Positions 12,344-59,057 of a stretch of 64,000 nucleotides of DNA are shown piece after piece. Below the pieces are notes generated by a model. That model did not search any database and was not told the DNA's origin. It saw nothing but the letters and a program-made list of their open reading frames with translations. Source of the DNA: Candidatus Methanomethylophilaceae archaeon (GTDB lineage: Archaea; Thermoplasmatota; Thermoplasmata; Methanomassiliicoccales; Methanomethylophilaceae). The translations under genes and the position numbers were made by a program. Position 1 is the first letter of the stretch. Each line of letters starts with the position of its first letter. Location of the stretch: NCBI GenBank assembly GCA_944321505.1, contig CALULN010000021.1:62001-126000 (forward strand), given 5' to 3'.

Positions 12344-13158
12344 GCGTCCGGAAGGGCCGCCTTGGCCTCCCTGTAGATCTTCTTCGCCGGACCGAGATCC
12401 GCCCATCCGGGCCCTCCGTCCAGCAGCTCCAGGCCCATCTTGTCGCAGACGTCCTGGGCCTCCGCCTTGAAGCGCACCGGATCCGCCAGCGGGGACTCCA
12501 GCATCACTCCGTACTTGTACCCGCAGAGCTCGAAGATCATGCGCATCTCCTCCATGCTGTTGTGGCCGATTCCGCGCATCATCTCGGAAGCGGATATGAA
12601 CGGCACCCAGTTGGAGGCGACGGCGGGGGTGATCAGCAGCTGTCCGGTGTGCGCTCTCAAGAGGTCCAGGTAGCGCTTGCTGCCGCCCACGGCCACACCG
12701 ACGCAGTCGTCGCATACGCAGCCTTCGCAGTCGGTGAACACGAACACCGGCGCGTTGACCTTCGATTCCGCCCACTTCTTGAGATCCCACAGGGCGTTGC
12801 CGCAGAGGCCGTAATAGAAAGCGATGACGTCGGCCTTGTTGCCCATGAACTCCGTCTCCTCCTCCAGCTTCGCCTTGAGGACCTTGGGCTCCGCATGGAG
12901 ACCCAGATCGTTGGAGTAGATCACGATGTTGTACGCATCGGGATCATGATCGAAGGTCCAGTTGAGGAATTCGCTCTCGCTGATAAGGGTGTATTCCAGG
13001 CCCTTCTCCTGCAGCTTGGGCTTGATGGTGGACGCGGGGCCCACATCGGTCATGTAGATCCTCTTGGGATCCGGGTCGTTGGACAGGCTGTAGAGGAGCT
13101 CGTCCTCCAGCATCGGGCACAGTATGACACACAGCGTTCCCTTCTTCACTTCAATCAT
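12340..13158 (-). CDS. DUF1638 family protein
   Basis: 272 residues; DUF1638 proteins are common in methylotrophic methanogens and some anaerobes, often beside corrinoid methyltransferase genes, but their biochemical role is not settled. The opening GTLCVILCPMLEDELLYSL is typical of the family. A cysteine cluster DCEGCVCDDCVG in the middle could bind metal or a cofactor. It overlaps the end of the TetR gene by 8 nt (ATGATTGA) and so is the second gene of a TetR-controlled operon. Confidence 0.8.
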   Translation of the reverse strand: MIEVKKGTLCVILCPMLEDELLYSLSNDPDPKRIYMTDVGPASTIKPKLQEKGLEYTLISESEFLNWTFDHDPDAYNIVIYSNDLGLHAEPKVLKAKLEEETEFMGNKADVIAFYYGLCGNALWDLKKWAESKVNAPVFVFTDCEGCVCDDCVGVAVGGSKRYLDLLRAHTGQLLITPAVASNWVPFISASEMMRGIGHNSMEEMRMIFELCGYKYGVMLESPLADPVRFKAEAQDVCDKMGLELLDGGPGWADLGPAKKIYREAKAALPDA

Positions 13159-13783
13159 CTCCGAACTTCGAATCTATGCACTCCGCAGGGGTATCCATGA
13201 ACCCTACGTCGGCGCATTCCATCAGCGCCAGGATGCGGGGTTCCGTACCATCCGGCAGAATGCCGGTCAGAGCAGGCATGTATGAGAGGAGCACGGACAG
13301 CGCGTCTCCGCGGGTGACGTCTCCGTCATGGAGGCCGCCGGCCAGGGATGACATCCCGGCGTACAGGAAGCGCACCATGGCAGGGGTCCACCTCTCGTCC
13401 GGCAGGTTGCGGCGGGCCCACTCGGCCGCCATCGAGGACACGATGTCCAGGACGGGACCGTGGCGGAACGCCTCCGACACCAGACGTGCCAGCAGCCGGG
13501 AGCGGGAGCAGGCCTCGATCATGTACGCCGGAGGCAGCACCGCCATGTCCTCTCCGATGCCGGACTGACGGACGCTGCGGGAGGCCTTGGTGAGTATGTC
13601 TCCCGCGAAAGCCTCCATCAAAGAGCAGAAGAGCCTCTCCTTGCTCTCGTATACGTAGTAGATACTTCCTATGTGCAGCCCTGTATCCTTCGAGATCATG
13701 CGGATGGTGGTCTCCTCGTACCCGTTGGCGAGGAACAGCCTGATGGCGGAATCCACGATGACCATGTCCTTGCTCTTCTCCAT
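13151..13783 (-). CDS. TetR/AcrR family transcriptional regulator
   Basis: 210 residues with a standard N-terminal helix-turn-helix (IRLFLANGYEETTIRMISKDTGLHIGSIYYVYESKERLF, residues about 14-50) and a helical ligand-binding C-terminal domain that identifies no ligand. It precedes and overlaps the DUF1638 gene. Two copies of a TTGAAC-N2-GTTCAA palindrome lie immediately upstream, so it probably represses its own operon and responds to a small molecule linked to DUF1638. Confidence 0.88.
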   Translation of the reverse strand: MEKSKDMVIVDSAIRLFLANGYEETTIRMISKDTGLHIGSIYYVYESKERLFCSLMEAFAGDILTKASRSVRQSGIGEDMAVLPPAYMIEACSRSRLLARLVSEAFRHGPVLDIVSSMAAEWARRNLPDERWTPAMVRFLYAGMSSLAGGLHDGDVTRGDALSVLLSYMPALTGILPDGTEPRILALMECADVGFMDTPAECIDSKFGDD

Positions 13784-13793
13784 GCTCTGCCTC

Positions 13794-13840
13794 TTGAACT
13801 AGTTCAACTAATCACACAACTAGTATTTGAACTTGTTCAA
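13794..13840 (-). promoter_or_regulatory. Paired palindromic operators for the TetR regulator
   Basis: A perfect 14-bp palindrome TTGAACTAGTTCAA (13794-13807) and a near-perfect copy TTGAACTTGTTCAA (13827-13840). Their centres are 33 bp apart, about three helical turns, so two dimers would bind the same DNA face. They lie 10-57 nt upstream of the TetR start, where the core promoter must be. Confidence 0.75.
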
Positions 13841-13908
13841 CTGACCACTCCGAAGTAAACGGAGACAGAAGGAAACACAGAATCCGCACGAGAATTGAGG
13901 ATTAGAAG

Positions 13909-18372: not shown

Positions 18373-19724
18373 GCCGCCAGGTCCCGTTTCAGCATGCGAA
18401 GTACCAGCAGACCCAGGCACAGCACGATGCTGGATCCGATGACCTCCGCTATGGTCACCCCCCACCACACCATCGTCAGAGACATCGTGAGGGACATGAC
18501 GAAGCAGAAGGGGACCCTCATGAAGTTGCGGAGGGTGGTTGCGCCCAGGGACCAGAGGCCCTTGCCGATGGACTGGAACAGGCTAGCGGTCACCAGTCCG
18601 ATCATGTAGAACGGCAGGAACAGGGAGCCTATGCGGACGAACATGGTCATCTCGTCCGCCAGCTCGGCGGAGGAGCCGGAGTAGGTGAACAGCATCACCA
18701 TGTACGGGGCGATGAGGATGGACACCACAGCGACGACGATCATCACGGTGACCCCTCTCTTCAGAGCGAAGGAGTAGACCTCTTTTATGCGGTCATAGCT
18801 GCGCTGCCCGTAGGCGGCGGCGCTGATTGGCACAAGAGCGGAGCCGAAGGAGACGGCTATCATCGTCAGTATATTGAGGATCCTCCAGCCTGTGGTGTAG
18901 ATGGCTATCCCGTTGGCGGGGTCCACGCTCTCCAGGATGAGGTTCACAAGCAGGGTGGACAGCGAGAGGAGCACCATCTCCAGTGAAGCGGGCACCCCGA
19001 CCCTGAGTATGTCCCGGTCCAGCTCCCTGTCGAAGCGGAACCCCTTGAACCTGAACCTGACATAAGTGCCGCCGCTGACGTAGTAGCGGACAGCAAGCAG
19101 AGATGCGGCCAGCATCGCGACGGCGCTGGCCACCGCGGCTCCGGTGACACCCATGTCCAGGTAGAAGATCAGTATCGGATCCAGGATCATGTGGACAGCC
19201 ACGCCCACCACTTGGATGTGCATGGACCTCTTGGCGGCGCCTTCCGAACGGAGGAGGGCGCTGAAGATGAAGCTGACCATGTAGATGGGGGCGCAGAGCA
19301 TTATGGGGACTCCGTAGGCCATGGTCTCCGCCAGGTACTGCCCAGCGCCAGCGGCCACGAAGAGAGGCTCTGCGGCGAATGCGAATATCGCCGTTATGAT
19401 TATGCCCACCAGGACGCCGATCACCATCACCTGGGAGGCCGCCTTCCCTGCACCCTCCCTATCGCCGATGCCTATGCGCCTGGCGATGGCCTGGGATGCT
19501 CCAGTCCCAAGTCCGTTGCCGATGCCCACGAGTATGAAGAAGAAGGGGAAGACGACGCCGGTGGCTGCGAGCGCACCTGTGCCCAGACCGGAGACCCAGA
19601 TCGCATCTACTAGATTGTTCAGCGCCTGGACGATCATGCCGATGGCGATGGGCACCACCATCACCAGCAGCGACTTCTTCGGGTCGCCGAGGATGTTGGA
19701 TGTACTGGCCTCTCCCTCAGACAT
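18360..19724 (-). CDS. MATE family multidrug/cation efflux protein
   Basis: 454 residues, 12 predicted membrane helices in two homologous halves. The opening NILGDPKKSLLVMVVPIAIGMIVQALNNLVDAIWVSGLG is characteristic of archaeal/bacterial MATE transporters, which export organic cations using an ion gradient. The substrate cannot be told from sequence. Single gene; no coupled regulator. Confidence 0.92.
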   Translation of the reverse strand: MSEGEASTSNILGDPKKSLLVMVVPIAIGMIVQALNNLVDAIWVSGLGTGALAATGVVFPFFFILVGIGNGLGTGASQAIARRIGIGDREGAGKAASQVMVIGVLVGIIITAIFAFAAEPLFVAAGAGQYLAETMAYGVPIMLCAPIYMVSFIFSALLRSEGAAKRSMHIQVVGVAVHMILDPILIFYLDMGVTGAAVASAVAMLAASLLAVRYYVSGGTYVRFRFKGFRFDRELDRDILRVGVPASLEMVLLSLSTLLVNLILESVDPANGIAIYTTGWRILNILTMIAVSFGSALVPISAAAYGQRSYDRIKEVYSFALKRGVTVMIVVAVVSILIAPYMVMLFTYSGSSAELADEMTMFVRIGSLFLPFYMIGLVTASLFQSIGKGLWSLGATTLRNFMRVPFCFVMSLTMSLTMVWWGVTIAEVIGSSIVLCLGLLVLRMLKRDLAAQPS

Positions 19725-19766
19725 GGGGGCGCCCAGAAGGTGCGCTCATATGAAACTATCCATGGG

Positions 19767-20975
19767 TCAGAGCGAGTCGAGGATGTCCCTGATGGAACCT
19801 TTGGCGATTACCACCCTGACACCCGACTCCTCCAGGACCTTGGCGGGCAGCGGCCCGATCTCCGAGACCACCACCGTGCCGGCGTCGCCGATGGATGCGA
19901 TGACCTCCTCGATATGGCGGCGGTGGCTGTCCCCGGAGACGGATGCCCCTGTGTCAACATCGACCCTCCTCAGCAGCCTGTGTGCCTCCCCGGGGCCGAA
20001 GACGTAGAACGCAGGGGCGTTGCCGAATCCGCAGTCCACGTTCTCCCCGTCAGATGATGCGACGGCGATGGCCGTGCCGGCATGGACGGGGGACATGGGC
20101 CTGGGTGCGCAGGACCCGCAGGCGAACTCCTGCGAGCGGTCCTCCCCCAGCTTGCCGATGGCGTCTGCGCGGCACTGCTTGCAGTGCCTCATGACGTTGA
20201 TGCCCATGCCCTCGCAGCGGTCCATGAGCTCCTTGCGCATGGCAGGCGTCGGGGCCTCCATGCCCTCGAACGCCGTGCCCTCTACGGGTATGAGCGGGAG
20301 GATGTTCACGCTGTACGCCCCTCTGGAGCGCACCTCGCGGACGATGTCCGGGATATGGTCCGCGTTGACCCCGGGGATCATCACGATGTTGATCTTCACC
20401 GCCATGCCCAGGGCGACGCATTCGTCCAGACCGCGGAGCTGCCTCTCCAAAAGCAGGGATGCGGCCTCCTCTCCGCGGAGGGTCCTGCCCTCCCAGGTGA
20501 CGCGGCCGTAGACCTTGGCCCCCACGGCGGGGTCCACGGCGTTCATGGTGATGGTGACGAACCTGACGCCGAGATCGTATAGGCGTTTGGCATTGCCGGG
20601 AAGTGCCAGACCGTTTGTGGATATGCACAATGTGAGTCCGGGGTGCTCCCTCCTCACCAGGTCGATGGTCTCGAAGGTGGCCTCGTTGGCCAGCGGGTCC
20701 CCGGGGCCGGCGATGCCGATCACCTTCAGCTCCGGGACCTTCTCCAGCACCTGCCCCACCCTGTCGGAAGCCTGACGGGGGGTCAGCACATCGCTGGTGA
20801 CACCGGGACGGGACTCGTTGCTGCAGTCGTACTTGCGGTTGCAGTAGTTGCATTGTATGTTGCAGGCAGGGGCCACCGGGAGGTGCATCCTGGCGAACCT
20901 GCGGTGGGCCTCGTCGTTGTAGCACGGGTGGGTCTCCACCGCTCTCAGGACCTCTTCCGACGGCAAAACTATCAC
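19767..20975 (-). CDS. nifB: NifB-type radical SAM protein with C-terminal NifX-like domain
   Basis: In diazotrophs NifB fuses two iron-sulfur clusters and inserts a carbide to make the nitrogenase cofactor precursor NifB-co. 402 residues: radical SAM motif CNIQCNYCNRKYDC with the ESRPGV segment diagnostic of NifB, further cysteines at HCKQCRADAIG and CGSC, then a NifX/NafY-like domain (about 300-400). It starts at GTG in a GTGA overlap with the Rrf2 regulator, so the two are one operon. No nifHDK genes lie within the window. Confidence 0.88.
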   Translation of the reverse strand: MIVLPSEEVLRAVETHPCYNDEAHRRFARMHLPVAPACNIQCNYCNRKYDCSNESRPGVTSDVLTPRQASDRVGQVLEKVPELKVIGIAGPGDPLANEATFETIDLVRREHPGLTLCISTNGLALPGNAKRLYDLGVRFVTITMNAVDPAVGAKVYGRVTWEGRTLRGEEAASLLLERQLRGLDECVALGMAVKINIVMIPGVNADHIPDIVREVRSRGAYSVNILPLIPVEGTAFEGMEAPTPAMRKELMDRCEGMGINVMRHCKQCRADAIGKLGEDRSQEFACGSCAPRPMSPVHAGTAIAVASSDGENVDCGFGNAPAFYVFGPGEAHRLLRRVDVDTGASVSGDSHRRHIEEVIASIGDAGTVVVSEIGPLPAKVLEESGVRVVIAKGSIRDILDSL

Positions 20976-21442
20976 TGGACCCTGACCGGCTGGCCGTTGC
21001 GGCACTCCTCGCCCCATCTGACGAGATCCGCCAGCGTCACATGGTCGATGACGCCGGAGACGGCCTCGTCAACCATGGACCACAGCTTAATGGCAGTGCA
21101 GTTCTCGTATCTGGAGCAATGGGCGGACTTCCCCTTGACGCAGGGGATGGAGATCTCTCCCTCCATCTCGCGGATGATGGAGCCGACGGTGTATTCCTCG
21201 GGGGGCTTCGCCAGGCGGTACCCTCCCTTGGGGCCGCGGGTAGATTCCACGAAGCCCGCGGACTTCAGGACTATCATGATCTGCTCGAGGTACTTGGCGG
21301 AGATGTCCTGGGTCTCCGCCACCTCCTTTATGCGGACCGGACGGTCCGTGTTCTCGGCCAGCTGCTGCATCATGCGCAGGGCGTAGCGTCCTTTTGTGGA
21401 AATGAACGTCGTAACTCCTCCGGTTTCTGTTATCCCACCCAT
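20972..21442 (-). CDS. Rrf2/IscR family transcriptional regulator
   Basis: 156 residues. Winged helix at ISTKGRYALRMMQQLAENT through GGYRLAKPPEEYTVG, followed by three cysteines (C-x7-C-x5-C in CVKGKSAHCSRYENC) in the position that binds an Fe-S cluster in IscR and RsrR. It likely senses iron-sulfur status or redox and controls nifB, which it overlaps. The start is ambiguous: the first ATG is given, but a GGAGGAG lies inside it and family members usually begin close to FISTKGRYAL. Confidence 0.87.
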   Translation of the reverse strand: MGGITETGGVTTFISTKGRYALRMMQQLAENTDRPVRIKEVAETQDISAKYLEQIMIVLKSAGFVESTRGPKGGYRLAKPPEEYTVGSIIREMEGEISIPCVKGKSAHCSRYENCTAIKLWSMVDEAVSGVIDHVTLADLVRWGEECRNGQPVRVQ

Positions 21443-21456
21443 TGAGTATGATTATT

Positions 21457-21469
21457 TATGCTTTGCATA
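21457..21469 (-). promoter_or_regulatory. Palindrome upstream of the Rrf2-nifB operon
   Basis: TATGC-TTT-GCATA, a perfect 5-bp inverted repeat 15 nt upstream of the annotated Rrf2 start and overlapping the AT-rich promoter (GCATAAATAATC on the minus strand). It is a candidate autoregulatory operator. Confidence 0.45.
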
Positions 21470-21520
21470 CCAGGGGCGTCCGACGGGCCGGTGCCAGATT
21501 TAAACCCACGTACGGGTTGG

Positions 21521-22279
21521 TCATCCATCCAGGCCCTTGCGGTACCCGGTGGTGAAGTTCTTGTCGTACAGCTTGGACAGCTGGTAGTCGTCCCCCAGGA
21601 ACCATCCGACCACCGTCAGGGCGGTCCTGGTGATGCCTGCCTCCCTGACCTTGCCGGCTATGTCCGCCAGGGTGCCTCTGACTATCCTCTGGTCCGGCCA
21701 GGTGGCCTTGTAGACCACCGCCACCGGGGTCTCAGGCTCGTAGCCCCCGGCGATCAGCTTGGACGAAAGCTCGTCCATGAACCCGGCGGAGAGGAAGATG
21801 ATCATGGTCGCATGGTGCTTCGCCAGATCCTCCAGCTTCTCCCGGGGCGGGACGGGCGTCCTGCCCTCCATGCGCGTCAGTATGACTGTCTGGGACACGT
21901 CCGGGAGGGTGTACTCGCTCTTCAGGACGGCGGCGGTGGCCAGGAAGGAACTGACCCCGGGCACGACGTCGTACTCGATGCCCAGTTCGTCCAAACGGTC
22001 CATCTGCTCCCTGTGGGCGCCGTAGACCGCGGGGTCGCCGGTGTGTACTCTGACCACCTTCTTGCCCTGGCGCTCCGCCGTGGACATGACCTCTATCACC
22101 TGGTCCAGGTCCATGTACGCGCTGTCGTGGATCTCCGCACCCTCCTTGGCCCCCTCCAGGACCTTGGGGTTCACCAGGGACCCGGCGTACACGATCACGT
22201 CCGCCTCGTCTATGAGGCGCTTGCCCTTTATCGTCAGCAGCTCCGGGTCCCCCGGACCTGCGCCTATGAAATGAATCAT
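21521..22279 (-). CDS. cbiF: Cobalt-precorrin-4 methyltransferase
   Basis: Methylates C-11 of cobalt-precorrin-4 with SAM in the anaerobic cobalamin pathway. 252 residues with the SAM-binding loop IGAGPGDPELLTIKG, the YAGSLVNP segment and the TGDPAVYGA motif of CbiF/CobM. It follows cbiL after a single nucleotide. Cobamides are needed by the corrinoid methyltransferases that RamA activates. Confidence 0.93.
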   Translation of the reverse strand: MIHFIGAGPGDPELLTIKGKRLIDEADVIVYAGSLVNPKVLEGAKEGAEIHDSAYMDLDQVIEVMSTAERQGKKVVRVHTGDPAVYGAHREQMDRLDELGIEYDVVPGVSSFLATAAVLKSEYTLPDVSQTVILTRMEGRTPVPPREKLEDLAKHHATMIIFLSAGFMDELSSKLIAGGYEPETPVAVVYKATWPDQRIVRGTLADIAGKVREAGITRTALTVVGWFLGDDYQLSKLYDKNFTTGYRKGLDG

Positions 22280-22280
22280 C

Positions 22281-22988
22281 TCAGAACCCTCCCTTCTTGG
22301 CGATCACCGTGGTGAAATAGCCGTACCTGCGCTTCGGATCCATCGGACCGATGTACTCGTCCTCCATCCCCACGTTGCTGACCACTACCGCATCATCGGC
22401 GCTGAAGCCGTTCCTCTCCATCAGCGAGGCGATCTCCCCCATGGAGTTGAAGGCCTTCATGACCACCACGTTGTCGAACCCCTCGAACGCGTTGGCGACG
22501 TCGGGGTTGTCCTTGGCGTAGGAGACTACCGCCAGGCCCTCCTCGCCGATCATCAGCGGCACCCCCGCCTTGGCGGCGCCGTGGCAGAATGACGGGATGC
22601 CGGGGACCACCTCGGTCTCATAGCCGAGGTCCCTGACCATCCTGTCGATGCGCATGTAGGTGCTGTAGACGGAGACGTCGCCCAATGTTATCATTGCGAT
22701 GTCCTCGCCGCGGTCCAGACGCTCCGCCAGCTCCGCAACCGCCTCCCTGCGGCAAGCCTGCCTCACCTCGTCGCTGGGGTCCATCCTGAACTCGAGCTCC
22801 AGGATGTCCTTGCCGGAGACGTCCACCCTCCTGCGGATGATGTCCAGGGCGGTGCTCCTCTCCCCCCTCACCTTCACGGGGTACGCGATCGTGTGCGCGG
22901 CCTGCAGCGCCTCGAATGCCCTCAGCGTCATGAGGGAGGGGTCTCCGGGGCCCACGCCTATGCCGTACAGCTTGCCTTTGGCGGTCAT
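22281..22988 (-). CDS. cbiL: Cobalt-precorrin-2 C20-methyltransferase
   Basis: Adds the C-20 methyl group that later allows ring contraction in anaerobic cobalamin synthesis. 235 residues; GIGVGPGDPSLMTLRA is the SAM loop, LGDVSVYSTYMRI and VVPGIPSFCHGAAKAG are typical of CbiL/CobI. The start is the ATG before TAKGKLYGIG, not the longer in-frame opening. It is the first gene of a two-gene cbiLF unit divergent from a cysteine-rich protein. Confidence 0.92.
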   Translation of the reverse strand: MTAKGKLYGIGVGPGDPSLMTLRAFEALQAAHTIAYPVKVRGERSTALDIIRRRVDVSGKDILELEFRMDPSDEVRQACRREAVAELAERLDRGEDIAMITLGDVSVYSTYMRIDRMVRDLGYETEVVPGIPSFCHGAAKAGVPLMIGEEGLAVVSYAKDNPDVANAFEGFDNVVVMKAFNSMGEIASLMERNGFSADDAVVVSNVGMEDEYIGPMDPKRRYGYFTTVIAKKGGF

Positions 22989-23038
22989 CGGGCCACGGAA
23001 ACGAATCGGGGATATATTACTTGGTCGATACATCCAAC

Positions 23039-23374
23039 ATGGACCCCCAGTACTCGGAGAGGGTTGCGGAGGAGCTTTCGGGAGACGTCATCGGCAGCAA
23101 CGCCGCATGCCCGTACTATCCCTGCCACGAGGATGGGCAGGACTGCACATTCTGCTTCTGCCCCTTCTACCCCTGCTTGGACCCCGACCTGGGGGAGACC
23201 GTGATCGGCAGGAAGGGGAGCCCCGTGTGGTCCTGCAAGCGCTGCATGCTGCCCCACCGTCCGGAGAACGCGGGAATGATCCATTCGGCTCTGAAGGGCA
23301 GGTGGCCCTGCGGGGACGACGGGCTGGGGCCTCTCTTCCGGAGGGCCAAGGACATGGAGATGTCCTACCGCTGA
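23039..23374 (+). CDS. Cysteine-rich small-domain protein
   Basis: 111 residues with about ten cysteines in the pattern CPYYPC, CTFCFCPFYPC and CKRCMLPH, the Cys-rich small domain often found beside cobalamin genes in archaea. Metal or Fe-S binding is likely; its exact role is unknown. ATG 23039 is chosen over TTG 23021 because GATATATTAC at 23011-23020 would put the 5' end close to it. Divergent from cbiLF with overlapping promoters. Confidence 0.82.
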   Translation: MDPQYSERVAEELSGDVIGSNAACPYYPCHEDGQDCTFCFCPFYPCLDPDLGETVIGRKGSPVWSCKRCMLPHRPENAGMIHSALKGRWPCGDDGLGPLFRRAKDMEMSYR

Positions 23375-23389
23375 CGGTTGCATACACAA

Positions 23390-23590
23390 CTTTATATACG
23401 TCCAATCAGTTGCATAATCAACCAATGTGCGATGCGGGGGCATCGCAGGGAAGGTGATGCGAAAAAAACGTACCATCGTGAAGAACGGCCGCGGCGCCGG
23501 GTGCTCAGACGATATCATGTTTCACCACCACACTAGTACAGTCCTTTTTACCGACGCCGCGAGTCCCGTGCTGGATGCTTCGGCATCCTG
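23390..23590 (+). ncRNA. Candidate small RNA with 5' and 3' hairpins
   Basis: A strong TATA box (TTTATATACG, 23390-23399) has no good gene behind it. About 25 nt later the sequence opens with a perfect hairpin TGCGATGC/GCATCGCA (23427-23446 region), and it ends with GGATGC-TTCG-GCATCC, a UUCG-tetraloop hairpin at about 23574-23589, after a short T-run. GTTG-N6-CAAC palindromes flank the TATA box on both sides. A 67-codon frame from 23457 is possible but shows no recognisable protein and runs into marR. Function unknown. Confidence 0.4.
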
Positions 23591-23629
23591 CGATAGGGAT
23601 ATATACGCTGAAAGTTGCATGAGCATCTT

Positions 23630-24067
23630 ATGCAGGCTGACTCTGATGCGTTCGGCATAATGCCCTTCCCGGTAAGGATGAAGCACTTCATCGATGCCAT
23701 CTCCACGGACACCGTGAAGGACACGGAGTTCAGGCCCTTCGACATACCGTTCATCAGCGTGATAGGCAGGTTCGACGGGATCTCCCAGAAGGACATCTCC
23801 GCCGTCCTCGATTACGACAAATCCTACACCACGCGCATCATCAACCATCTCATCGAGATCGGAGCTGTGGAGAACCGCGCATCCGGCAAGACCCACTCCC
23901 TCCATCTCACCGCCAAGGGCATGACCGCCCTGGAGCTGTCAGTAAGAGTCTCCGAGAGGATAGAGGAGGCGATGTTCAGAGGCTTCACCGAGGAGGAGAA
24001 GAACCTCTTCGTGGAGCTCACGTCCCGGATGGCCAAGAACATGTCCGACTGCCTCAGCGAGATGTGA
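23630..24067 (+). CDS. MarR family transcriptional regulator
   Basis: 145 residues with a central winged helix (FDGISQKDISAVLDYDKSYTTRIINHLIEIGAVENRAS) and flanking dimerisation helices. ATG 23630 is preferred to the TTG five codons upstream, because GGATATATACG at 23597-23607 lies about 27 nt before it. An inverted repeat TGCAT-N9-ATGCA (23616-23634) spans the predicted transcription start and could be its own operator. It overlaps the phosphatase gene, which it probably regulates. Confidence 0.82.
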   Translation: MQADSDAFGIMPFPVRMKHFIDAISTDTVKDTEFRPFDIPFISVIGRFDGISQKDISAVLDYDKSYTTRIINHLIEIGAVENRASGKTHSLHLTAKGMTALELSVRVSERIEEAMFRGFTEEEKNLFVELTSRMAKNMSDCLSEM

Positions 24068-42565: not shown

Positions 42566-43120
42566 GTCTGCCACGGTCGTGCGGGCATCGGCGGCAGGAT
42601 CTCATCCAGGAGCATCTCGAAGCGCATCGCGGGCCAGGGGCTCAGACTGTCTCACGTCACCGCAGAGGAGTACATGGCCTACATCACCGAGGCGATGCTT
42701 ATGTCCAGGGCCGGCAGGATGGATTCCTCCACCCGCGGATACCTGCGCACATCGGACAAATTCTACGCCTCTGATATCGGCATCAGGAACTTCATCGCCG
42801 GGGCGAGGATCGACGATATCGAGGGGATCCTGGAGAACGTGGTGTACAACGAGCTGGTATACAGGTACGGAAACGCATCCGTGTGCGACGTCAACGGGCT
42901 GGAGGTGGATTTCATCTCGGAGGCCGACGGACGCCTGATGTACTTCCAGGTCAGTGTCAGCATCGGCGACGCCGGGACCCGCGAGAGGGAGCGGAGACCG
43001 CTTAGGGCGCTCAGAGACGGATATCCCAAGACGGTCATCATCTACGAGGGCTTCCCGCAGAAGGACATCGACGGCATCAGGATCGTCGGCATCCTGGAAT
43101 GGCTCACCGGATGCGGATGA
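42566..43120 (+). pseudogene. DUF4143-type AAA ATPase, C-terminal remnant
   Basis: Only the DUF4143 part remains: SISKRIAGQGLRLSHVTAEEYMAYITEAMLMSRAGRMD, KFYASDIGIRNFIAG and the nuclease-like end NGLEVDFISEADGRLMYFQVSV. The N-terminal AAA domain with its Walker motifs is absent; the frame closes upstream at TGA 42563. A short product from ATG 42674 is possible but would lack the ATPase. Two full-length relatives occur at 48977-50329 and 56673-58040. Confidence 0.8.
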
Positions 43121-48863: not shown

Positions 48864-48949
48864 AGAGATTCCCGCTGCGTGTATGTTTTGGGTTTCAGAG
48901 ATTCCCGCTACGTGTATGTTTTGGGTTTCAGAGATTCCCGCTGCGTGTG
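48864..48949 (+). repeat. Tandem 33-bp repeat, about 2.6 copies
   Basis: Units begin at 48864, 48897 and 48930 (each AGAGATTCCCGCTGCGTG...), with a single G/A difference in the second and the third cut short. The repeat ends 28 nt before the ATPase start, so it may belong to that gene's control region. In one frame it would read RFPLRVCFGFQ, but no gene is supported there. Confidence 0.85.
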
Positions 48950-48976: not shown

Positions 48977-50329
48977 ATGCATTTCAGACAAGCTATGAAG
49001 GTGTTCAGAAGGAAGATCTACTCCCGAATGCTGGAATGGAAGGAGTGCAACGGCGGATGCGCACTGATGATCGAAGGGGCGAGACGCGTCGGCAAGACGA
49101 CCGTCGTCAGGGAGTTCGTGAGCAGGGAGTACCGCAGCCACATCATCATCGACTTCTCCGCCCGCGACAAGGGGATAGAAGAGCTCTTCCACAGCTTCGG
49201 CAGCGGCATCGATGCGTTCTTCAGAGAGCTGCAGCGCCTCACCGGGGTGCGCCTCTGGGAGCGCCGGAGCGCCATCGTCTTCGACGAGGTGCAGCTGTTC
49301 CCGCTGGCGAGACAGCTCATCAAGCACCTGGTTGCCGACGGACGCTACGACTACATCGAGACGGGATCCCTGATCTCCATCAAGAAGAACATCGAAGGCA
49401 TACTGATGCCGTCGGAGGAGATGTCCGTCGACATGCACCCGATGGACTTCGAGGAGTTCCTCTGGGCCAAAGGCGACGATGTCACGTTCCAGCTTGTGAG
49501 GGAATCCTTCGGATCGGGCGAACCCCTCGGCGAATCCGCCCACAGGCGCATGATGGGGCTGTACACCGAGTACATGATCGTCGGAGGGATGCCGCAGGCG
49601 GTGGAGGCTCTCCTGAAAACGAACAACTACGATGCCGTGGAGAACGCGAAGCGCGGGATACTCAGGGTGTACTCCGAGGATGCCGTCAAGATCAACGCAA
49701 GGAGGATACTCTCCGCGCTCCCATCCTTGCTGTCGAAGCACGACAAATCCTTCAGCCCCGGCGAGATAGCCAGGGACTCCCGCACGAGGGACTATCTGGG
49801 TGCGGTGGACTGGCTCAGCGAATCCAAGATGGTGAACGTGTGCCGCAGGGTCACCGACCCTGACCCCGCCCCGGACATGTACGTGGACGGGAACTCCTTC
49901 AAGCTGTACCTCCTGGACACCGGTCTGCTGCTGACGGCCGCGCTCATGTCCAACATCGGCGACAGGGACGGGATGTACGACAGCATAAGGCGGAACCGCC
50001 TGGGAATCAACAAAGGCATGCTGTTCGAGAACATGGTGGCACAGGAGCTCGTCGCCGCGGACCTGCCCCTCAGGTTCTGCCGCTTCAGCGACGGCGACGC
50101 CAAGACAAGCTACGAAGTGGACTTCCTCATCTACCGGGGAGGCAAAGTGTCCCCTGTGGAGGCCAAGTCCGGGATCTCGTCCAGGCACGCATCCCTGGAC
50201 AGGTTCGCGGAGAAGTACGGGAAGAGGGTGTCGGAGGCGTACATCATCCACACCAAAGGCCTCAGGAAGGACCGTGACGTGACGTACGTCCCCATATACA
50301 TGACATCGCTCCTCCTTGAGAGCGTCTGA
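48977..50329 (+). CDS. AAA ATPase with DUF4143 domain (AAA_14)
   Basis: 450 residues. Walker A GARRVGKTT, Walker B SAIVFDEVQLF, sensor ETGSLISI, then the DUF4143 part: winged helix SFSPGEIARDSRTRDYLGAVDWLSESKM and a nuclease-like fold with YEVDFLIYRGGKVSPVEAKSG (D...E-x-K). The family is abundant in host-associated prokaryotes with unknown purpose, perhaps defence or a regulatory switch. Starts at ATG 48977 or 48995 are both possible. It follows a 33-bp tandem repeat. Confidence 0.85.
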   Translation: MHFRQAMKVFRRKIYSRMLEWKECNGGCALMIEGARRVGKTTVVREFVSREYRSHIIIDFSARDKGIEELFHSFGSGIDAFFRELQRLTGVRLWERRSAIVFDEVQLFPLARQLIKHLVADGRYDYIETGSLISIKKNIEGILMPSEEMSVDMHPMDFEEFLWAKGDDVTFQLVRESFGSGEPLGESAHRRMMGLYTEYMIVGGMPQAVEALLKTNNYDAVENAKRGILRVYSEDAVKINARRILSALPSLLSKHDKSFSPGEIARDSRTRDYLGAVDWLSESKMVNVCRRVTDPDPAPDMYVDGNSFKLYLLDTGLLLTAALMSNIGDRDGMYDSIRRNRLGINKGMLFENMVAQELVAADLPLRFCRFSDGDAKTSYEVDFLIYRGGKVSPVEAKSGISSRHASLDRFAEKYGKRVSEAYIIHTKGLRKDRDVTYVPIYMTSLLLESV

Positions 50330-56683: not shown

Positions 56684-58040
56684 GACCATAGCGTCCTGGC
56701 TCGCCCATGCGGAACTCCGGCAGGGGCCTGGGGATGAACAGGCAGTCCGGGAACCCTGCCGCGAACAGAGGATAGCATTCAACGCCTTTGCCGTCTACAC
56801 ATATGTTCTCCGTACCCAGCTTGATCCCGCGTTCTATGCGGCCGTCCCTCATCACGGAGTCCATGGACCTGGAATGAGGATTGATGCTGCCTCTGACCTG
56901 AATCGCCGTTGGTATGCCGTCGAAATCGGTGACGAAATCCATCTGCGTGGTCTTCCTGACATAGTTGAATGCTTCCACACCCTGTGAGTGTAGCATGGCG
57001 GCGACGAATCCCCTCCCCAACGGGTCATCCGACAGCCGCACCTGCGGATCGGATACCCTCTTCGCGGCACCCGGAATCATCGAAGCCAGCAACCCGACGT
57101 CGCATATGTGCATCCTGAAGAGGTTCCACCGTGCCATGAACGGAACCACGAGGTCATCAGCACGACAACATGGGAAACAGATGCCGGCATCAATGAGCCA
57201 GCCTATGCATCCGTCGTACTCTCTGCGCCCAACCTTGCCAGCGGACCCGACGGCACTGTAGCGGAACCTGGTGTCGTCGGCCTGAGCGGCGACGGACTCC
57301 AGACATCCTGGAATCCTGCTCCTGTTGCTCACGTCCGAATACATCTCCGCATCGCTCAGGAATTTATGAGCCAGCACCCTCTGTGCTTCAGCGACGTCCT
57401 CCGCATCACCGGTCGCGACCAGAGCACGCACGGCCTCCGGCATGCCGCCTGCGACCAGGTATTCCCTGAGCATCCTGTCCATGAAGTCCAGCTCGAACTT
57501 TTCCATCGGCTCCTTGGAGAGGATGCTGTCCTTCACAAGAGAGATCATACTGTCGCCGAGCCCTTTTGCACGGAGGAACTCCTCGAAACCCATCGGGCGC
57601 ATCGGCATGCGGTTCTCATACCCTACGGGATAGTGCGGCTGATCGACGCCTCTCACGTACGGGAACGATGTCAACGCTATGACGTCCCAATCCGGATCCT
57701 GTGTGAACGGTTTGAGACAGGTGCGGGCCCCCGGGCAGAACTGGACCTCATCCAGTACTATCAATGTCTCCCCCGGCACGAGAGCATCCTTTCCGAAGAC
57801 CTTCCGCATCTTGCGGATCAACGTATCCGTGTCGAGATCCTCCGAGAATATCCTGCGGAACTCAGGGCGCATCTCGAGGTCGATCTCCACATAGTGCCTG
57901 TATCCCGCCCCGAATCTGCGGACGGCCGTGGTCTTCCCGACCCCGCGGGGGCCGGAGATCGTCAGGGATTTGCGATTCGGATTGGATCTCCAATCCGCCA
58001 GTTCCTTGTCTATCTTCCTCCCGAAGAGCGTCTGCTCCAT
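56673..58040 (-). CDS. AAA ATPase with DUF4143-like C-terminal domain
   Basis: 455 residues. Walker A GPRGVGKTTAVRRFG, Walker B ETLIVLDEVQFCPGA, then YLVAGGMPEAVRALVATG and a nuclease-like tail (TQMDFVTDFDGIPTAIQVRGS). Related to the ATPase at 48977-50329 but well diverged. Overlaps the end of aroC by 11 bp, tail to tail. Three palindromic elements with a 33-bp period lie right before its start, an uncommon control region. Confidence 0.82.
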   Translation of the reverse strand: MEQTLFGRKIDKELADWRSNPNRKSLTISGPRGVGKTTAVRRFGAGYRHYVEIDLEMRPEFRRIFSEDLDTDTLIRKMRKVFGKDALVPGETLIVLDEVQFCPGARTCLKPFTQDPDWDVIALTSFPYVRGVDQPHYPVGYENRMPMRPMGFEEFLRAKGLGDSMISLVKDSILSKEPMEKFELDFMDRMLREYLVAGGMPEAVRALVATGDAEDVAEAQRVLAHKFLSDAEMYSDVSNRSRIPGCLESVAAQADDTRFRYSAVGSAGKVGRREYDGCIGWLIDAGICFPCCRADDLVVPFMARWNLFRMHICDVGLLASMIPGAAKRVSDPQVRLSDDPLGRGFVAAMLHSQGVEAFNYVRKTTQMDFVTDFDGIPTAIQVRGSINPHSRSMDSVMRDGRIERGIKLGTENICVDGKGVECYPLFAAGFPDCLFIPRPLPEFRMGEPGRYGPTP

Positions 58041-58055
58041 AAGGTGAAGATTAGA

Positions 58056-58145
58056 CTACTTTTTTCTAGATAAAAGTAGTTGGTTATGCCACTTTTTTCT
58101 AGATATAAGTAGCTAATATCACTACTTTATGCTAGACAATAGAAG
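58056..58145 (-). promoter_or_regulatory. Three 24-bp palindromic elements with a 33-bp period
   Basis: Elements at 58056-58079, 58089-58112 and 58122-58145, each an imperfect palindrome of type CTACTTTTTTCTAGATAAAAG around a central CTAGA. Their start-to-start spacing is exactly 33 bp, about three helical turns, so proteins would line up on one face. They fill the gap between the 298-residue protein gene and the ATPase start 15 nt away, overlapping the likely promoter. Confidence 0.8.
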
Positions 58146-58160
58146 AGAACAATGTAATCA

Positions 58161-59057
58161 CTACTCCCCGTCAACACGCATCGCCTCAAGGAGCTCTTCA
58201 ATAGCTTCCAAACGATGCCTCCATTGTCTGTAAAGATCCGCGACGATCGGGTCGGATTCATTCTCATCTATGAGGTATCCGGCATAGCGTTCCAATTCTG
58301 CGGCATAATCCTCATCTGATTCGGGCATCTCCCCCTTCCAGATTCCAACGGTCTTGCATGAGATGTTCTCGTGACAAAGAGGATGAAGACGCAGACGGCA
58401 GCAGAACATGCACCAGAATCCCTCCAGGATCTCCTGCAGCCTGTCCGCAGACAAACCTCTGTCCAAGGCTCTGTTGAATATCGATTTGAAACCACGGATC
58501 CTGTCCTCCATGCCCGGAAACTCATCGTATGGGAACGATTCCATCGTCTCGATGAAGAGCTGACGAACCGACAGCGTAGAATCAGACAGCTTAGCGCTTG
58601 GCTCCGCCGCCCTGATAGCCCTCCTCAGCCTCCCGAATTCATTCTGGAATTGGAACGGGGCATCGTGACACTCCATATCCGCAACCGCTTCCAGACCCGC
58701 TTTACCATGATATCTGCTGATGAAATCCTCGGCTTCGATGCCGGCGAACATTATGACCTCATCATCGCACGGAGGGCTGAGGATATGTCCAGAGTATGAT
58801 ACTCTGATGATGTCCTGGCCCTCATGATCCCATGATATGTACGGCATATCATCATAGGCGACTTCGTCCCCTTTTCTGTACCAGCAATGGGGGAGGCCGA
58901 TGTCCTTGTCCAACGACTCGCGTATCCTCCTGTGGACAAGCGTCATGAACCTGTTGAACAACACGTCGTAAGGCGGTTCACCGGCCTCTGCTAGATACTT
59001 GGAGATGTACACATATGCAATCTTCTCCGCATACCCTTCATCACCGACAGCCATCAT
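58161..59057 (-). CDS. Hypothetical protein upstream of the ATPase
   Basis: 298 residues, soluble, not recognised. Cys/His residues cluster in two places (FWCMFCCRLRLHPLCHENISC near 213-233, and GLPHCWYRK near 54-62), so metal binding is possible. Helical C-terminus rich in Glu and Arg. It ends TAG directly followed by TGA. Same strand as the ATPase downstream; the iteron-like block lies between them, so they are probably separately started. Confidence 0.55.
   Translation of the reverse strand: MMAVGDEGYAEKIAYVYISKYLAEAGEPPYDVLFNRFMTLVHRRIRESLDKDIGLPHCWYRKGDEVAYDDMPYISWDHEGQDIIRVSYSGHILSPPCDDEVIMFAGIEAEDFISRYHGKAGLEAVADMECHDAPFQFQNEFGRLRRAIRAAEPSAKLSDSTLSVRQLFIETMESFPYDEFPGMEDRIRGFKSIFNRALDRGLSADRLQEILEGFWCMFCCRLRLHPLCHENISCKTVGIWKGEMPESDEDYAAELERYAGYLIDENESDPIVADLYRQWRHRLEAIEELLEAMRVDGE

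Follow-up and report, generated by a model that had tools for sequence, protein, structure and literature searches.

Three short repeats stand at a regular step directly in front of an ATPase gene in the chromosome of a Candidatus Methanomethylophilaceae archaeon, and the question raised by this locus is what such an array is for. The DNA analysed, hereafter the window, is a stretch of 64,000 base pairs (bp) from contig CALULN010000021.1. A sequence-only reading of the window had described ATPases of this kind as having no defined role; a role has in fact been proposed for the family, which is listed in PADLOC as the candidate defence family PDC-S01. In PDC-S01 an ATPase is fused to a PD-(D/E)XK-type domain, and its genes are solitary, very abundant and often present in many copies per genome (PMC12988326). 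Among the defence families of prokaryotes it is reported to rank fourth by frequency (PMC12988326), and a rumen survey lists it as the individual locus found most often (PMC13356809); its phage-defence activity is treated in the literature as candidate and unvalidated (PMC12988326, PMC13356809). Neither of these papers reports a cis-element or any form of regulation for PDC-S01. The reading favoured here, which we consider probable, is that the array is a private operator of the ATPase gene, to which the ATPase binds cooperatively in order to autoregulate its own promoter.

Upstream of the ATPase gene, three 33-bp direct repeats (58051-58083, 58084-58116 and 58117-58149) follow one another at steps of 33 and 33 bp, copies 2 and 3 being 79% and 64% identical to copy 1. 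Their 24-bp cores begin at 58056, 58089 and 58122, just as the sequence-only reading had it, and shuffled sequences do not reproduce the arrangement: four matches to the core pattern are seen in the window against 0.04 expected, and none of 100 dinucleotide shuffles reaches four. The same reading took all three elements for palindromes, which holds for copies 1 and 2 (dyad scores of 11 and 7) but not for copy 3, which has a dyad score of 2 and is decayed. The core array ends 15 bp from the start codon of the ATPase, at a chromosomal locus adjoining aroC-like and pheA-like genes. When the whole 1.385-Mb genome was searched for the core pattern with up to three mismatches, as had been proposed, only the window array and one further site were recovered (C16:3898-3921, three mismatches), the latter being part of the array of a paralogous ATPase.

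A short upstream array is a family-wide feature of the ATPase genes of PDC-S01 group A, to which the window gene belongs, in archaea and in bacteria. The window's own genome carries about 21 AAA_14 genes, and most of the paralogs read have upstream repeats of their own. A scan across 450 kb of this genome gave only 15 direct-repeat arrays with a period of 18-50; about nine of them are non-coding, and six of these sit directly upstream of the ATPases. With a period of 31-34 bp and a repeat score of at least 10, a threshold that is arbitrary, and with start codons set by rule, arrays were counted before 46 of 53 archaeal group-A genes and 67 of 79 group-A genes of a genome scan. The bacterial loci are the best 80 matches to one peptide pattern, and the 79-gene scan covers Bacilli, Clostridia, Bacteroidales, Spirochaetes, Endomicrobium, Azoarcus, Coriobacteriia and others. 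After removal of three loci duplicated between the two sets, the pooled group A, spanning the Methanomethylophilaceae and many bacterial phyla, shows arrays of two to six direct repeats, mostly three or four, in 111 of 130 genes; among 203 intervals of 32 or 33 bp, 70 measure 32 bp and 133 measure 33 bp. Arrays above shuffles were also present on an Agathobacter plasmid, an Acinetobacter plasmid and an uncultivated phage-like contig, and the array of a Glaesserella copy was borderline.

Unrelated neighbour genes served as controls, excluding divergent genes that share the array's upstream region as well as tandem paralogs. At a score of at least 15 and a period of 31-34 bp, an array was found before 1 of 144 such neighbours, called by a simple open reading frame (ORF) procedure, as opposed to 57 of 79 family genes (Fisher p=1.4e-33). 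For the family as a whole this contrast, the occurrence in two domains of life and the constancy of the spacing described below already refute the notion of a chance or decaying repeat without function. For the window array itself the notion could draw on the degraded third copy and on the conserved residues that the window protein has lost, and it is hardly credible even there.

The step between repeats follows the ATPase subfamily; the unit sequence does not. In group B (about 430 residues, PDLC04790) the step is 23 or 46 bp in 28 of 30 genes, while group C (about 404 residues, PDLC04787) has repeat pairs, often palindromic, 38-42 bp apart in 16 of 30. Group D, which corresponds to PDC-S27 (ATPase_2/DUF234), has units that are often palindromic at 27-29 bp in 14 of 30. 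Spacing is held to about 1 bp within groups A and B, with groups C and D being less uniform, and all four groups are PADLOC phage defence candidates, either PDC-S01 or PDC-S27. A spacing bound to the subfamily over otherwise unrelated units is what would be expected from contacts between bound ATPases, and the case for the ATPase itself as the predicted binder rests mainly on this.

The sequence-only reading had suggested a cooperative nucleoprotein site in which perfect three-turn phasing places a dimeric protein on one face of the DNA. A cooperative site would still be the best reading of the array. One-face phasing, however, is not general: 33 bp amounts to 3.14 turns of 10.5 bp, and steps of 23, about 40 and 27-29 bp occur in the sister subfamilies. 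The geometry of the protein, and not a strict alignment on one face, would thus seem to set the step. Nor is a symmetric dimer required, as palindromy is enriched in only a subset of archaeal group-A members and bacterial units are no more palindromic than shuffled sequences.

The protein has features that would suit a DNA-binding role. The window ATPase passes the gathering score of AAA_14 (PF13173) with 61.3 against 27 bits (E 1e-16), and the Walker residues G30, G35, K36, D97 and E98 are invariant in family alignments. DUF4143 (PF13635), the domain by which the sequence-only reading had named it, falls below the Pfam cut-off (20.7 against 28.1 bits), a threshold that the paralogs pass. The PADLOC model PDLC04786 (PDC-S01) matches residues 6-430 with E=4.8e-89. 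A confident AlphaFold2 model (predicted local distance difference test score of 90.4) has a predicted architecture of an AAA+ domain, a winged-helix region and a PD-(D/E)XK-like C-terminal domain. When the model was compared with solved structures by Foldseek, the best match was Pyrococcus abyssi 2qen, and DNA-bound Orc1/Cdc6 proteins were among the best matches; a sequence search against solved structures returned AAA+ matches only, all weak. The combination of an AAA+ domain and a winged helix in the model with these Orc1/Cdc6 matches counts in favour of the ATPase as the predicted binder. In the PD-(D/E)XK-like domain, the columns E366/D368/E381/K383 read Q366/D368/Q381/R383 in the window ATPase. 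Its ortholog (L016) and most relatives retain E/D/E/K, with E/E/K kept in at least 90% of relatives. Because Q, Q and R replace E/E/K, the window copy is probably catalytically dead, if other members of the family are nucleases.

The position of the arrays would fit an operator. Counted from the start codon, group-A arrays span about -120 to -32, and only 3 of 111 loci have copies at another place. For many of the archaeal genes, the final copy merges with a TATA-like box situated about 25-35 nucleotides (nt) from the start codon; for many of the clostridial and bacillar genes it extends into the -35 position, which is followed after about 17 nt by TATAAT. This arrangement favours transcriptional autoregulation by cooperative assembly. 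We infer the ATPase as binder, its cooperativity, its autoregulation with the sign of that autoregulation, and any link to defence; the scheme would run as follows. The ATPase, which combines an AAA+ domain and a predicted winged helix, would bind its own array of three or four direct-repeat sites, and contacts between neighbouring protomers would fix the step at 32-33 bp (23, about 40 or 27-29 bp in the sister subfamilies). As the array borders on the core promoter or extends over it, its occupation would control transcription of the ATPase, most likely as negative feedback; given the occlusion geometry, repression would be preferred to activation. The feedback could then be released when the ATPase changes its state. 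With each paralog reading a different sequence, the 10-30 copies in one genome would avoid cross-regulation.

An action of the repeats as RNA, either as hairpins or as a small RNA in the ATPase leader, is very unlikely. Some units are palindromic and could form hairpins, but bacterial units show no such tendency beyond shuffles, and Rfam covariance models run against 57800-58400 gave zero matches up to E=1. Moreover, in many members the array is followed by the TATA-like or -10-like box, which would leave the array outside the ATPase mRNA.

Within one genome, the unit sequence is private to each paralog. In the window's genome, the similarity between units of paralogs has a mean of 4.9 against a background mean of 5.6. 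In a second genome (G045), where 20 upstream regions were read and 14 units were usable, the similarity is 6.0 against 5.8 for shuffled units. Across genomes, higher protein identity goes with higher unit similarity, and close orthologs have units in common. These data bear on the suggestion that a separate regulator, host-encoded or encoded nearby, binds the array and controls an ATPase that is not itself the binder. Direct-repeat operators are indeed usual for dedicated regulators, and the window holds a TetR-type gene (13151-13783, minus strand) directly preceded by a palindromic repeat pair of 33-bp period (TTGAACTAGTTCAA / TTGAACTTGTTCAA, 13794-13842) that is likely its own operator. With unrelated units, however, a different regulator would be needed for each of 10-30 paralogs per genome, and no constant partner gene stands beside the ATPases examined. 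The 298-residue protein that the sequence-only reading put forward as a possible participant is encoded by an ORF (58161-59057) between the pheA-like gene and the ATPase gene, has no Pfam or NCBIfam match, and is missing from a syntenic relative that retains the array; on the strength of this synteny, a role for it was rejected. A separate regulator is accordingly unlikely. A host regulator shared by the arrays, host regulators having also been named as candidates for binding, was rejected as unlikely, the units of paralogs within a genome being no more alike than shuffled sequences.

The array and the ATPase gene are inherited and transferred together. The closest relative of the window ATPase, 51-52% identical and in the same gene order in the congeneric genome G005, retains the array between its pheA-like gene and the ATPase, which is where the sequence-only reading might have failed had the array been lost. 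In five genomes that have the pheA-like gene without the ATPase at that place, the array is absent as well. Together with its recurrence across the family, this upholds the view of the array as a dedicated element of the ATPase gene. In different genera, a 98%-identical ATPase is found with its array in a block of about 1.9 kb (L018 and L100, 93% DNA identity), and the similarity of this block to a third genus begins at the array. Copy number varies among close relatives, as in a pair of 96.7% identical proteins (L203 and L204) with three and two copies.

Stretches of about 50-120 bp that resemble each other border the nearly identical ATPase blocks of L018 (1191-3173) and L100 at either end, and may be a trace of the way in which the block was transferred. 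The flank also contains remnants of a group-B 23-bp array.

The mobility of gene and array as one block could also mean that the array is a DNA address for the work of the ATPase, such as loading, assembly or self-recognition in an origin-, partition- or mobility-like process, and lies upstream of the gene by chance. The iteron-like form of the arrays, the structural matches to Orc1/Cdc6 initiators on origin DNA and the start of the third-genus similarity at the array would all fit. An address of this kind would not call for a place at the promoter, where the arrays are concentrated, nor for the rarity of copies elsewhere in the locus, and tens of arrays per chromosome make replication origins implausible. 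We regard this alternative as rather improbable.

Several observations weigh against the ATPase as autoregulator of a private operator. No array above shuffles accompanies the Ruminococcus albus and Fusobacterium copies, and the repeat scan finds none in about 15% of group-A genes. Pooled TATAAT-like hexamers at 16-19 nt number 13 against 4.5 expected, a modest excess at a distance that was picked once the data had been seen. In the window, the protein and the third repeat alike appear degraded. Lastly, partial Mantel tests disagree on which domain tracks the unit, pointing to the winged helix among archaeal pairs and to the C-terminal domain among bacterial pairs; given this mixed outcome, no single domain is claimed as the source of DNA specificity.

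Table 1. Coordinates of the repeat arrays, ATPase genes and protein regions in the window.
Feature	Position	Strand	Remarks
Array copy 1, promoter-proximal	58056..58079	-	Near-perfect 24-bp palindrome CTACTTTTTTCTAGATAAAAGTAG (plus-strand reading)
Array copy 2	58089..58112	-	Imperfect palindrome CCACTTTTTTCTAGATATAAGTAG
Array copy 3, distal	58122..58145	-	Diverged, hardly palindromic CTACTTTATGCTAGACAATAGAAG
TATA-like TTTTAT within copy 1	58070..58075	-	About 30-35 nt before ATPase start; candidate core promoter element, picked by eye
ATPase gene, 455 residues	56673..58040	-	AAA_14 with DUF4143-like C-terminal part; PADLOC PDC-S01 group A
AAA+ domain, residues 23-156	57573..57974	-	Walker A GPRGVGKT, Walker B LDEVQ
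Predicted winged-helix region, about residues 213-312	57105..57404	-	Candidate DNA reader; our assignment from model secondary structure and Orc1/Cdc6 matches
PD-(D/E)XK-like domain, about residues 340-424	56769..57023	-	Our reading of secondary structure and motifs
Second array, AGAGATTCCCGCTGCGTGTATGTTTTGGGTTTC x3	48864..48948	+	33-bp step; sequence unrelated to first array
Paralogous group-A ATPase gene downstream of second array	48995..50329	+	

Comparison with known systems helps to place these arrays. The window ATPase and groups A, B and C match the PADLOC models for PDC-S01, a single-gene phage defence candidate of AAA_14-DUF4143 type, the window copy differing in that it lacks the usual E/E/K of the PD-(D/E)XK-like domain. 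PDC-S27 (ATPase_2/DUF234) comprises sister-type AAA+ ATPases that likewise have upstream repeats, often palindromic, but with a step of 27-29 bp, fewer and less regular copies and another ATPase family (PF01637). The best structural match, the Walker-type ATPase PABY2304 of P. abyssi (2qen; E 4.5e-08, template modelling (TM) scores 0.43/0.54), shares 14% identity and has 350 residues as opposed to 455. Orc1/Cdc6 proteins on origin recognition boxes also set an AAA+ domain and a winged helix on DNA, and 2qby and 2v1u are among the best solved matches. Their TM-scores are only about 0.3, they are without the PD-(D/E)XK-like domain, and the sites of the window family are private to each gene and located at promoters. 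Membership in the Orc1/Cdc6 family was rejected; Pfam gives AAA_14, not Orc/Cdc6, and the resemblance is at the level of the fold.

In plasmid iterons with an autoregulated Rep, short direct repeats recur at a constant step next to the gene of their likely binder. By analogy, the arrays described here may be compared with them in each of these respects, but they are chromosomal, number tens per genome and go with an AAA+ ATPase instead of a classical Rep, and signs of an origin are lacking. A plasmid-type iteron origin, found once per replicon with its Rep gene, was likewise rejected for a chromosomal locus in a genome with many arrays, each at another ATPase gene. In the open-access literature no report of arrays upstream of PDC-S01 ATPases was found, the original PADLOC-candidate paper lying outside that search. 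As probable autoregulatory multi-site operators, the arrays would belong to a known type, here on a new class of protein and at an unusual scale.

Some further features concern the distribution of these genes. The 1.6-Mb genome G045 carries about 10 group-A and about 20 group-B ATPases, an extreme expansion for a small genome. On contig C31 of genome G001 (18570-23929), genes for group A, PDC-S27 and group C ATPases are clustered within about 6 kb; otherwise such genes are solitary. In the window, a 184-residue open frame at 42584-43108 partially matches the C-terminal half of a group-C PDC-S01 ATPase and is probably a gene remnant. Elsewhere in the same genome (L074:10321-10398, contig C23), three near-identical 28-bp repeats (GCGAGCATAAAAATTACGCTCC...) lie between a gene for a 2445-residue repeat protein and a large helicase-like gene, neither of them an ATPase of the PDC-S01 family.

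As for what the arrays mean for the family, one speculative and rather doubtful extension would see PDC-S01 and PDC-S27 as self-addressed immune switches. Each ATPase would be held inactive or primed on its private array, the bound complex would act as a sensor of invasion, and its disturbance would both release the effector and induce the gene; with array-protein pairs diversified, one genome could contain tens of independent switches. Aside from this extension, an array that accompanies most sampled members, with a private sequence and a step diagnostic of the subfamily, offers a biochemical handle on the family, since the sequence upstream of each ATPase gene would show the likely DNA ligand of its product. 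A further, general question is what keeps tens of paralogous pairs of protein and operator apart from one another within a single small genome, for which the PDC-S01 paralogs would provide a natural set of orthogonal regulators.
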